Assembly: GCA_028286365.1 (NCBI GenBank)
Contig: JAQBRR010000001.1
Span: 372,001 to 436,000 of the forward strand
Source of the DNA: Candidatus Saccharimonadota bacterium
GTDB taxonomy: Bacteria; Patescibacteriota; Saccharimonadia; Saccharimonadales; Saccharimonadaceae
Reading direction: 5' to 3'
DNA: 64,000 bases
The notes beneath the pieces were generated by a model, which was given only the letters and a program-made list of their open reading frames with translations, made no database searches and was not told the origin of the DNA. A program made the position numbers and the translations under genes. Shown in pieces: positions 15,655-21,449 of this stretch (position 1 is its first letter; each line of letters opens with the position of its first letter).

Positions 15655-15883
15655 GCGCATTTTGTGACTCTGACTACTGCTATTGTCTTCTGACAGTGCA
15701 GCAGGTGGGAAGCCCAGAATCATGAATGAGCCTACCTAAAATGTCGCACGGGTACCGAAAAGCAACACAATTCAACCACTATCAATTAAATGAAATAGGT
15801 CGACACGTACCCCGTTCTAAGCGAGAAGAAAGACAAAGTAAGGTAGACGCCCTTGTAGTAATACAGGCGGCAGGAGAACGAGT
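15655..15883 (+). ncRNA. Structured 5' leader, candidate cis-regulatory RNA
   Basis: The untranslated stretch before the LysM-CHAP hydrolase folds by eye into nested stems. GTGC/GCAC encloses AGGTGGG paired with CCTACCT (one G-U) at about 15704-15760, and GGTAC/GTACC with flanking ACG/CGT closes a second, larger domain (about 15757-15815). An AGGAGA Shine-Dalgarno at 15872-15877 ends the leader. I could not match it to a known riboswitch: the c-di-AMP (ydaO) class, which often controls such hydrolases, has conserved CCG/GGGGAACC-type blocks that are not visible here. An alternative 134-codon frame at 15726-16130 overlaps it but looks non-coding. Confidence 0.45.
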
Positions 15884-17129: not shown

Positions 17130-18425
17130 ATGTTTGTCGACACCGCCAAAGTATTCATAACAGCAGGCAAGGGCGGCGACGGAGCCGTTAGTTTTCGTCA
17201 TGAAATTTATGTCGATAAGGGCGGTCCTGATGGTGGTGATGGCGGCAAAGGTGGCGATGTTATCTTTGTGGCAAGCGAGAACGTTAATACACTTCTCGAT
17301 TTTCGCTACAAGCCAGAGTTAAAGGGTAGCGATGGACAAAATGGCTCGAAACGTGATCGACATGGTCGCTCAGGTGAGGCACTGTACGTCAAAGTTCCTA
17401 TGGGGACGGTTGTTAAAAAAGATGGCGAAATTATTGCTGATCTAACGGCTGATGGGCAGGAAGTAATTATTGCTAAGGGTGGCGATGGCGGCTTTGGCAA
17501 TGCTCACTTCAAATCTTCGATTCGTCAAACTCCTCGAATTGCCGAAAAGGGAGAATTGGGCGACACCTTTGAAGCGGAGCTTGAGTTAAAACTCCTTGCT
17601 GATGTTGGGCTGGTTGGTTTTCCAAATGCCGGTAAATCAACCTTCCTTAGTGTTGTTAGTAATGCCCGACCTGAAATTGCTAATTATGCGTTTACGACTT
17701 TATCTCCTAATCTTGGCGTAGCTGATATTGATGATGGAAGTCTGCTGATTGCCGACCTTCCAGGACTCATTGAAGGCGCTAGCGAAGGTAAGGGCCTCGG
17801 TGATGCATTCCTACGTCATATTGAGCGTACAGCCGTTCTGTTGCATCTCATTGACGTATACACAGATGATATCGCGGCTGCTTATAAAACAATCCGTAGC
17901 GAGCTTGAAAGTTATAATATTGAGCTAACCAATCGACCAGAGGTCATTGCACTCACCAAGATTGATGGTTTGGATGAGGATATTATTCAAATGCAAATTG
18001 ATGCAGTTAAGGCTGTGGCCGGTGACGCTGAAGTACTCGCTATTTCATCAAGTGCGCATAAAGGCATCAAGGAAGTACTTCGTTCATTACGTCACAAGGT
18101 TATTGAGGCACGAAAGATCGCTGCCGAGGATGACATCGAAGCTGATGATGAAGAGTTCGAGACGATTACACTTGGCCAGAATCAGATCGCCGAAGGTTGG
18201 ACGGTCGAAAAGATCGTTGAAGATGGCCAAGTTTACTATAAGGTTGTTGGTGACAAGATTGAGAAGTTTGCCAGGCGTACACAATTTGATAACTTTGAAG
18301 GTGTAAATCGCCTTCGTGACATTATGAAGAAGATGGGTATCAGCCACGAACTGCGGCGTAAAGGCGCAGAGGGTGACACTGATATCCACATTGGTGACAG
18401 TGAATTTACCTTCCTAGAGCAATAG
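17130..18425 (+). CDS. obgE: Obg/CgtA GTPase
   Basis: Obg is a ribosome-associated GTPase that guards 50S assembly and responds to ppGpp. The 431-aa protein has the glycine-rich Obg fold (1-158, with KGGDGAVSFR and DGGDGGKGGDV), the G domain with GFPNAGKST (G1), DLPGLIEGAS (G3) and LTKIDG (G4), and a C-terminal OCT domain ending in the FLEQ region. The length fits Gram-positive Obg proteins. It is preceded by a terminator and its own -10 box, so it is a single-gene unit with a probable leaderless mRNA. Confidence 0.97.
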   Translation: MFVDTAKVFITAGKGGDGAVSFRHEIYVDKGGPDGGDGGKGGDVIFVASENVNTLLDFRYKPELKGSDGQNGSKRDRHGRSGEALYVKVPMGTVVKKDGEIIADLTADGQEVIIAKGGDGGFGNAHFKSSIRQTPRIAEKGELGDTFEAELELKLLADVGLVGFPNAGKSTFLSVVSNARPEIANYAFTTLSPNLGVADIDDGSLLIADLPGLIEGASEGKGLGDAFLRHIERTAVLLHLIDVYTDDIAAAYKTIRSELESYNIELTNRPEVIALTKIDGLDEDIIQMQIDAVKAVAGDAEVLAISSSAHKGIKEVLRSLRHKVIEARKIAAEDDIEADDEEFETITLGQNQIAEGWTVEKIVEDGQVYYKVVGDKIEKFARRTQFDNFEGVNRLRDIMKKMGISHELRRKGAEGDTDIHIGDSEFTFLEQ

Positions 18426-19509: not shown

Positions 19510-19538
19510 TTGACATTTTAACACATTAGTGCTATAAT
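19510..19538 (+). promoter_or_regulatory. Perfect consensus promoter of the 19.5 kb ncRNA
   Basis: TTGACA (19510-19515), a 17-bp spacer and TATAAT (19533-19538), with TG-C before the -10 (extended -10). It is the best sigma70-type promoter I found in the window; the predicted start is near 19545. Confidence 0.85.
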
Positions 19539-19544
19539 TATACA

Positions 19545-20011
19545 TGTCATCAGTTGAAACAGAGTTTCCTGAGATGTGTTAGTGTTAATTTTGAAAATAT
19601 ATGGTCTCGATTGCTATGCTTTTCTTTACATCTATGGTGTGCGGAAAAGCATAGCAACCTGACCCGAATCGGGTTGCTTGTTAGTGGATCTAATCCACGA
19701 ATGGGGGACCCGAATAACCCCAAGACCCCACAGGGTCGAGAGTAACGACGCGGGTCACTTGTTGTGATCATAGTGTGGCGTTCCCCCGACGCCGATCGAC
19801 TCTCGGCTCTGTGGCCTACTTTTTCAAAACACATTAACAACTCCCCACATCCGTGGGATGACAGCTCGTTGCCGTGACTTCATCACTGGCCGAGCACCGT
19901 AGTGACGTTTGGGAATCCCCCGCAGCTAGGCTATATGCCTTTGCCTCAAACGTCACTACGGATTCAACCCTAAGTATTTATTCAACGACGCGCTTTCGAG
20001 CGTGTTTTTTG
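19545..20011 (+). ncRNA. Highly structured non-coding RNA of about 460 nt, unassigned
   Basis: No protein-like frame is present, but pairing is dense. A closing stem joins ATGTGTT (19574) to AACACAT (19828). There is a 14-bp hairpin at 19611-19624/19644-19657 and hairpins at 19662-19674 and 19684-19698. A 9-bp stem joins 19735-19743 to 19799-19807, enclosing two smaller hairpins. GGGGG (19703) and CCCCC (19783) are complementary and could form a pseudoknot. A 15-bp perfect stem follows (19897-19911/19947-19961), then a UUCG-loop terminator. I see none of the signature boxes of RNase P RNA, tmRNA or SRP RNA. The raiA RNA class is a candidate by size and style, not verified. Confidence 0.75.
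19988..20011 (+). terminator. Terminator of the structured ncRNA
   Basis: Seven-base-pair stem with a TTCG tetraloop (ACGCGCT-TTCG-AGCGTGT, one G-U pair) running into six T residues. It ends 2 nt before the sbcB -10 box. Confidence 0.88.
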
Positions 20012-20012
20012 T

Positions 20013-20018
20013 TATGCT
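20013..20018 (+). promoter_or_regulatory. -10 box of sbcB
   Basis: TATGCT, 6 nt before the ATG at 20025, directly after the ncRNA terminator. Confidence 0.5.
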
Positions 20019-20024
20019 GGGTAT

Positions 20025-21449
20025 ATGTCAAAAACATTCTTTTTTTATGACCTTGAAACCAGCGGTCTTAGTGGGCGCGATGATCGGATTATGCAATTTG
20101 CTGGTATTCGCACCGATATGGATCTTAAGCAGGTAGGTGAGCCAGTGAATCTACTCGTCAAGCTTGGTGATGATGTCTTGCCAAGTCCTGACGCTATTAT
20201 GGTAACGGGTATTAGCCCCCAGGCAACAAAGGATGATGGCTACAGTGAGGCGGAGTTTTCTAAGATTTTATCGGAAGAAATCTTTACACCCGACACGATT
20301 ACGGTTGGATTTAACAATGTTCGCTTTGACGATGAATTTATTCGTCATCTTTTTTGGCGTAATTTTTATGATCCATATGAATGGAGTTGGCAGGACGGAC
20401 GTTCTCGGTGGGACTTACTTGATGTTGTGCGTATAACCCGGGCACTCAGGCCAGAGGGCATTAATTGGCCTGTTGATGATAAGGGTAATGCAACCAATCG
20501 TCTCGAGCTACTCTCATCAGCCAACGGCCTCACCCATACCAAAGCACATGATGCACTGAGCGACGTTGAGGCACTTATCGGTGTGACAAAACTTATTCGT
20601 GATAAACAACCACAATTATACGAATATCTCTTGAAAATGCGTGATAAAAATGAAGTAAAGAAATTAGTAAATCTGGATGTGAAGCAGCCGTTTGTCTATG
20701 TGAGTGGACGTTTGGACGGCGAGTTCAATAAGGCAACGGTAGCATTTCCATTAACGGCCGGCAAGAACGGCAACGTTGTGGTATATGATCTACGGTATGA
20801 CCCAACAACGTTTCTTGAGATGAGCTCTAAGGATCTTGCGAAAAAACTATATGCTACATGGGAGGAAAGACAGGCTGAGGGCTTTGTAAAGTTACCTGTT
20901 AAGGAACTGCAGTATAATCATGTGCCTGCAGTTGCACCGCTTGGTGTTTTGGAAAATGGCGATGGTTGGAAAAATATTGGACTGACTCAGGATCTGATAG
21001 CCAAGCATAAAAAACTATTATTATCGGCTCCTGGTTTTGCTGAGAATATTCGATCACTATTTGAGAACAAGCCAGACTACAAGAAATCACCGGACCCAGA
21101 AGCGCAACTCTACGATAGTTTTGTACCAGACATCGATAAGCTTCGGATCGAGTCGGTTCGAAACGCAAGTGCGCGTGAATTGGCTGATTTCAATCCTAAT
21201 TTTACAGATGAACGATTACCTGAATTATTGCTACATTACAAAGCGCGCAATTTTCCTTCGAGTCTTGCAGAGGATGAGTCAATTGCATGGGAAAAATGGC
21301 GAGCTGCCAAAATTAGCACAGCACTCCCAGGATTTATGAAGTCATTGACGCGTTTATCGGCAACAATAAGTGATGATAATAAGCAGTTTATGCTGCAAGA
21401 ACTGCAGCTGTGGGCAGAAAGTATCCTGCCAGCTGATATTGATAGTTAA
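20025..21449 (+). CDS. sbcB: Exodeoxyribonuclease I
   Basis: ExoI degrades single-stranded DNA 3'-5' in recombination and mismatch repair. The 474-aa protein has the DEDDh exonuclease residues: FYDLETSG (D9, E11), the second Asp in NNVRFDDEFIR, and HDALSDVEA (H175, D180). The RSRWDLLDVVR region and the SH3-like and helical C-terminal parts of the SbcB family follow. The length matches E. coli SbcB (475 aa). It starts right behind the ncRNA terminator and converges on a small reverse-strand gene, with 4 nt of overlap at the stops. Confidence 0.93.
   Translation: MSKTFFFYDLETSGLSGRDDRIMQFAGIRTDMDLKQVGEPVNLLVKLGDDVLPSPDAIMVTGISPQATKDDGYSEAEFSKILSEEIFTPDTITVGFNNVRFDDEFIRHLFWRNFYDPYEWSWQDGRSRWDLLDVVRITRALRPEGINWPVDDKGNATNRLELLSSANGLTHTKAHDALSDVEALIGVTKLIRDKQPQLYEYLLKMRDKNEVKKLVNLDVKQPFVYVSGRLDGEFNKATVAFPLTAGKNGNVVVYDLRYDPTTFLEMSSKDLAKKLYATWEERQAEGFVKLPVKELQYNHVPAVAPLGVLENGDGWKNIGLTQDLIAKHKKLLLSAPGFAENIRSLFENKPDYKKSPDPEAQLYDSFVPDIDKLRIESVRNASARELADFNPNFTDERLPELLLHYKARNFPSSLAEDESIAWEKWRAAKISTALPGFMKSLTRLSATISDDNKQFMLQELQLWAESILPADIDS

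Follow-up and report, generated by a model that had tools for sequence, protein, structure and literature searches.

What is the apparently strong, protein-less transcription unit that stands between a gene we take, from its sequence, to be obgE and an sbcB-like gene in a member of the Saccharibacteria? The window analysed here is a 64 kb stretch of a Candidatus Saccharimonadota genome of 850,738 bases in two contigs (C1 and C2), in which an earlier reading made from the sequence letters, the original prediction, had placed an unassigned structured RNA. This transcript, referred to as the window RNA, is a real structured RNA that fits no known class, and it samples a set that is larger and stranger than what that prediction had seen. 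We regard it as very probable that it belongs, as a non-coding member, to a family of structured RNAs not described before, transcripts closed by a stem and found in one Saccharibacteria family.

The signals that delimit the window RNA are as originally described: a perfect TTGACA-17-TATAAT promoter with an extended -10 TG (0 mismatches), and a terminator consisting of a stem followed by T6. Allowing up to one mismatch, the extended promoter pattern is expected 0.05 times per 64 kb and was observed once; strong expression of the window RNA is predicted from this promoter. The minimum free energy of positions 19545–20014 is -197.9 kcal/mol, compared to -131.4 ± 5.9 kcal/mol for shuffled sequences (z -11.3; 0 of 100 shuffles as good), and the fold contains a 15-base-pair (bp) stem and a long-range stem of 9+9 bp; a 15-bp stem and a 9-bp long-range stem were among the helices of the original prediction. 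Inside the window RNA we found no ATG open reading frame (ORF) with a Shine-Dalgarno-like site, in keeping with the claimed lack of a protein-like frame, and no ORF with high GC at third codon positions, an optional trait of the cassette family described below. A GGGGG/CCCCC pseudoknot, also proposed, is possible from the runs present (GGGGG at 19703–19707; CCCCC at 19917–19921 and at 19783–19787, the latter forming the loop of a hairpin at 19777–19793) but has no comparative support, as a relative (L069) has the C-rich loops and no run of four or more G.

Covariance-model searches of the window RNA for RNase P, transfer-messenger RNA (tmRNA), signal recognition particle (SRP) RNA, 6S and raiA were negative, so that it remains unassigned, as first stated. 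The Rfam scan of the window brought only lysM-TM7 and tRNAs to threshold, and a permissive scan of the RNA alone against Rfam 15 returned chance matches only, the best (E 0.037) being a trypanosomatid snoRNA below its gathering score. RNase P RNA (RF00010) and tmRNA (RF00023) are encoded elsewhere in this genome, at C1:17314–17652 (250 bits) and C1:14170–14576, respectively, and the window RNA is not expected to be the SRP RNA because it is dispensable. By size and position the RNA could be one of the known housekeeping RNAs, or else a riboswitch that controls sbcB; such an identity is nevertheless extremely improbable, since no Rfam model matches, 30 of 89 corresponding gaps in the family are short, nearly complete relatives lack the RNA, and the terminator ends it ahead of sbcB. 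The small SRP RNA model RF00169 has no match in the nearly complete genome itself, where the large SRP model was outside the genome-wide search, and a tmRNA-like stretch seen by eye in one relative (L153) has no Rfam support. No description of these RNAs was found in the literature searched, including searchable papers on cultured Saccharibacteria, and a scan of a collection of genome contigs matched only the source record.

A DNA search of 199 genomes of the same family aligned mainly promoters and, in three cases (L002–L004), the first ~70 bases. By eye, those three share one arrangement, with the promoter right after obgE, a 5' hairpin GUUGAAAC...GUUUCC, hundreds of folded bases, a terminator and then sbcB. 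Since sequence search was weak and this arrangement was shared, we gathered obgE–sbcB gaps by synteny. In the same family, 89 gaps were flanked by both genes. Of these, 32 contain an RNA and its promoter as judged by pattern, 30 measure less than 200 bases, and the other 27 have different contents or an RNA whose promoter is weaker; in 30 genomes from 15 other families of the order, the arrangement was seen in 0 of 25 readable gaps. The cassette family is therefore lineage-bound and patchy. The window RNA has its features: a strong promoter in the obgE–sbcB gap, P1, P2, a folded cargo and a terminator before sbcB. In the nearest relative, G198, whose SbcB is 92% identical at the amino acid level, the gap measures only 45–48 bases, an empty site with respect to both the window RNA and the 316-amino-acid ORF that occupies the space between obgE and the RNA promoter. 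The likeness to large orphan RNAs such as raiA, suggested originally, does not extend to conservation: the window RNA is a cassette that is dispensable, changes fast and is missing from G198; and while the RNA is indeed unassigned, it does not stand alone, being one of a wider set of stem-closed transcripts, several with ORFs of high third-position GC. The gap is a site of variable inserts, because protein-coding inserts stand there in other genomes (L043, L053 and L055; by eye NUDIX-like in L053 and pilin-like in L055). At least two cassettes stand in tandem upstream of sbcB in L041, L059, L122, L123, L129, L147 and L153, sometimes one coding and one non-coding.

The cassettes follow a single order: strong promoter, P1, P2, P3, a variable folded cargo, a GC-rich 3' hairpin (P4) and the terminator. 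The cargo is either non-coding or consists of one ORF with third-position GC far above that of the genome. For P1, an alignment of eleven arms has 97.7% of its cells paired and contains 17 double changes, compared to 4.9 ± 2.2 after shuffling, and sliding the arms abolishes the pairing; because the arms were picked by hand, the double changes outweigh the paired percentage. The middle of P1 is a UU bulge (once UC) followed by an invariant GA. For P2, we compared the best ungapped helix between the 5' part of each of 45 transcripts and its own 3' end with the helices formed with 3' ends of other species; the own end beats 95% of foreign pairings in 22 of 45 transcripts and 99% in 14 of 45, despite widely differing stem sequences (AUAGCUAGGUACAU, ACAAGGUAACGAUAGU, CCAAGUCGUAUCAGAGA). 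These compensatory changes in P1 and own-end pairings in P2 supply the covariation proposed as a check on the original prediction, and, judged from sequence comparison, P1 and the closing stem P2 are maintained while their sequences change. A P2 motif, UUGACAAGYUGGAUA, is common to several genera and has six exact matches in 295 genomes, five at the locus and one, in G193, in coding sequence outside it, which we attribute to chance. A long hairpin stands at the P3 position in most relatives inspected by eye. Folding is strong in all 45 transcripts (z below -4 in 45/45, median -7.9, 12 shuffles each), compared to -0.16 ± 1.19 for 40 ordinary genes. The set is not pure, since it was picked by promoter and a few transcripts (L109, L154, L161) contain ordinary-looking membrane ORFs that do not adjoin obgE.

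Coding members stand at the same locus. ORFs of 204, 106, 108 and 68 amino acids occur in the gaps L122, L123, L147 and L153, with third-position GC of 0.87, 0.67, 0.92 and 0.85, respectively, compared to 0.38–0.47 in the adjoining sbcB and obgE; one of them, L147_1, has a complete frame of a 16-bp P2, an inner hairpin, the ORF and a 3' hairpin. We also read most of the window's own genome for cassette-like genes. Its larger ORFs have a third-position GC of 0.39 ± 0.06, and about a dozen short genes lie at 0.59–0.75, several of which combine a strong promoter with a 3' GC hairpin and an end-to-end stem. Among 852 genes, with flanks crudely drawn, a strong flank-to-flank helix accompanies 6 of the 16 ORFs with high GC and 21 of the remaining 836 (Fisher p 4e-6). 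Ten cargo ORFs use C- or G-ending codons throughout, end in TAA in 0 of 10 cases compared to 55%, and are more folded than synonymous-codon shuffles (mean z -2.33, compared to -0.17 for 25 control genes). Most coding cargo is richer in GC at third positions than most non-coding cargo is overall (about 0.47–0.61). A Pfam scan of the high-GC ORFs gave no match at threshold except an acyltransferase, and one borderline match to Clp_N (E 0.0012). The acyltransferase (C2:144374–145105; PF01553, E 1.2e-16) was rejected as a cassette: its codon usage is suggestive (third-position GC 0.64), but it aligns throughout with G198, and it thus illustrates high GC in a 0.39 genome without being a cassette. 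C1:440910, whose codon usage is also suggestive, was set aside because it too aligns throughout with G198.

Comparison with G198, of whose 820 kb most was read and whose flanking genes align at about 80–86% nucleotide identity, reveals how the cargo changes. At five shared loci an own high-GC ORF (third-position GC 0.59–0.79) stands opposite a G198 high-GC ORF (0.62–0.76), and the paired ORFs are either 26% identical (the Clp_N-like ORF, upstream of ftsE) or without convincing similarity. Closing stems of 20/22, 15/14 and 10/10 bp (own/G198) are present at three of these loci. At the Clp_N-like locus, P2 and P3 are nearly identical to those of G198; the two P4 hairpins differ but are similarly strong. 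Two further own loci, C2:101569 and C2:104447, are empty sites in G198. From one near relative to another, the outer parts persist, and it is the cargo that has been exchanged or lost.

We know of no precedent for a closed scaffold that can enclose an ORF as well as a non-coding RNA and whose inside changes completely between species. The large ornate RNAs in Rfam (OLE, ROOL, GOLLD, raiA) are likewise large, highly structured and without known protein product, but much of their core is conserved, whereas the cassette RNAs keep only the P1/P2 architecture and match none of these covariance models. Integron gene cassettes also combine constant surroundings with exchangeable single-gene cargo; unlike them, the stem-closed units have their own promoter and terminator and form a folded, closed RNA, with no attC-like site or integrase seen. 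Closer by, the same lineage has a structured RNA in lysM-TM7 (RF03005), which lies 3.6 kb upstream of the window RNA (window 15730–15876, 103.5 bits); it is a known, catalogued cis element, here upstream of a LysM-like gene, and does not match the window RNA.

The best explanation as a whole, which we put forward tentatively and at somewhat short of even chances, is a stem-closed, cargo-swapping RNA family with a host-directed role. Closure of both ends in one stem around a folded body would give protection from nucleases and compactness, yielding a discrete, long-lived molecule. A direction towards the host is suggested because the cargo is replaced wholesale at kept scaffolds, its codons end in C or G and TAA stops are avoided, in an episymbiotic lineage with a type IV secretion system that mostly lacks a relaxase. 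The cargo would then evolve against a high-GC actinobacterial host, which would translate the coding members, and the C-rich loops of the window RNA may base-pair with G-rich targets, Shine-Dalgarno sequences among them, and so prevent translation. A putative exit route is the Patescibacterial type IV secretion system, which mostly lacks a relaxase and on that ground has been proposed to be co-opted for a function still to be identified (PMC12102498). Host-directed function, with delivery of these RNAs as effectors, appears possible but doubtful from sequence features. Still less likely is the fuller proposal that Saccharibacteria deliver a repertoire of end-closed, nuclease-resistant RNAs into actinobacterial hosts, to be translated or to act directly, the repertoire comprising messengers with host-adapted codons as well as non-coding, antisense-type RNAs. 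A set of compact, closed RNAs that are replaced rapidly and use foreign codons would allow direct tests of how ultrasmall episymbionts control their hosts; even if these RNAs stay inside the cell, we know of no parallel to a closed scaffold with an interchangeable interior.

Several observations weigh against this explanation. The signs of host direction are indirect, and that part could be wrong. The window RNA is without a close homologue, its own pairs are backed by folding and analogy rather than by covariation of its own, and the 3' strand of its P2 lies ~150 bases upstream of the terminator, nearer in most relatives. Taken over all genes, high third-position GC does go together with a closing stem, but only in part, and G198 has no convincing closing stem at two of the five loci compared. 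The codon bias might serve RNA folding instead of translation in a host, despite the GC difference between coding and non-coding cargo noted above, and high third-position GC could stem from selection on RNA structure or from recent transfer. Sec-like signal peptides in some members fit ordinary secretion, and no cargo ORF was traced to Actinobacteria in a search that stopped short of the full actinobacterial protein set.

The C-rich loops can also be read as acting at home. Hairpin loops with at least CCCC number 15 in the 29 non-coding transcripts, compared to 6.1 ± 2.0 after shuffling; 13 of the 15 are in the window RNA, L002, L003, L004, L059 and L069, a group in which P1 mostly has the GUUGAAAC form or one close to it. 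For Staphylococcus aureus, RNAs whose C-rich loops bind Shine-Dalgarno sites have been described (PMC2837412, PMC3961350), and it is by analogy with these that an action of the window RNA is proposed. The S. aureus RNA RNAIII is about 500 nucleotides long with many hairpins, long-range pairing of its ends and C-rich loops; in the window RNA, too, the ends are joined at long range by the 9+9-bp P2, which is kept in relatives, and hairpin loops are C-rich. Both RNAIII and some relatives of the window RNA carry a short ORF. RNAIII differs in belonging to another phylum, with no sequence relation to the window RNA, and in being conserved within its species with own mRNAs as targets, whereas cassette cargo is swapped between near relatives. 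An RNAIII-like regulator inside the Saccharibacterium, its C-rich loops acting on Shine-Dalgarno sites of own mRNAs, would account for the closed architecture, for the excess of C-rich loops and for their resemblance to a described mechanism; we consider it improbable though not negligible, as patchy presence and wholesale cargo turnover are ill-suited to regulating conserved own genes, and C-rich loops are missing from most transcripts outside the subgroup of the window RNA.

Stem and folding may instead serve solely to protect or control messengers that encode effector proteins, whether secreted or injected. Coding members do have Shine-Dalgarno sites and sometimes Sec-like signal peptides, and the closing stem at C2:154333 spans the Shine-Dalgarno region (GACAGAGGAG/CUCCUCUGUC) and is conserved in G198. 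We think this rather unlikely, since 29 of the 45 transcripts, which we judged non-coding, have the same architecture and are folded as strongly. On this account the window RNA would be a member whose ORF was lost or shrunk to a very short peptide, again a rather unlikely history, as no decaying ORF is visible in it. A still smaller probability attaches to the RNA being a mere passenger at a site of variable insertion, where mobile or phage-related cargo, perhaps for defence, was dropped, with a structure that serves mobility or counter-defence. The 27 of 89 gaps with other contents or weaker-promoter RNAs, the empty sites in near relatives and repeats beside some cassettes would agree with this; however, searches of phage and plasmid collections with the RNA and the cargo proteins gave nothing useful, neither an integrase nor an attachment site was seen, and a fixed 5' leader and stem around a changing inside are the opposite of a moving unit. 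Compared with these accounts, we continue to favour the stem-closed, cargo-swapping family with a host-directed role; its parts in the window are given in Table 1.

Table 1 Parts of the window RNA and neighbouring features (window positions).
Feature	Position	Strand	Basis or detail
Promoter, TTGACA-17-TATAAT with extended -10 TG	19510–19538	+	exact match at all 12 consensus positions
Structured transcript, ~465 nucleotides	19545–20012	+	start predicted 7 nucleotides past the -10; end at terminator U-run
P1, 5' hairpin with 2-nucleotide UU bulge and GAAAC/GUUUC inner stem	19551–19571	+	compensatory changes in relatives
P2 closing stem (long-range, 9+9 bp), 5' strand	19577–19597	+	helix listing
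P3, 15-bp hairpin just inside P2	19611–19657	+	arms 19611–19625/19643–19657; 6-bp apical extension 19627–19641
Cargo, 16-bp stem around two hairpins	19728–19814	+	stem 19728–19743/19799–19814; helix listing
P2 closing stem, 3' strand	19821–19839	+	helix listing
P4, 17-bp 3' hairpin	19897–19961	+	arms 19897–19913/19945–19961; C-rich internal loop AAUCCCCC, 19914–19921
Intrinsic terminator, stem-loop and U-run	19987–20012	+	stem 19987–20006, then T6
obgE, conserved left neighbour	17130–18425	+	presumed name, from sequence; synteny tested
Upstream ORF, 316 amino acids	18529–19479	+	putatively beta-lactamase-like, label of the original prediction
sbcB-like gene, conserved right neighbour	20025–21449	+	name from the original prediction; synteny tested

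Two further features of the same genome were observed outside the window RNA. At C2:102980–103371 (L244), near a cassette, a second strong promoter (TTGACA..TGCTAATAT) is followed by a strongly folded non-coding stretch with no Rfam match. At C1:130668–131285 (L201), an inverted repeat of 25 bp, TGCAGAGGACGGACCTTTGCTCAGT, joins the two flanks of a transposase-like ORF, by eye of the REP-associated type; repeats similar to this one are present beside some cassettes and at many sites in G198.
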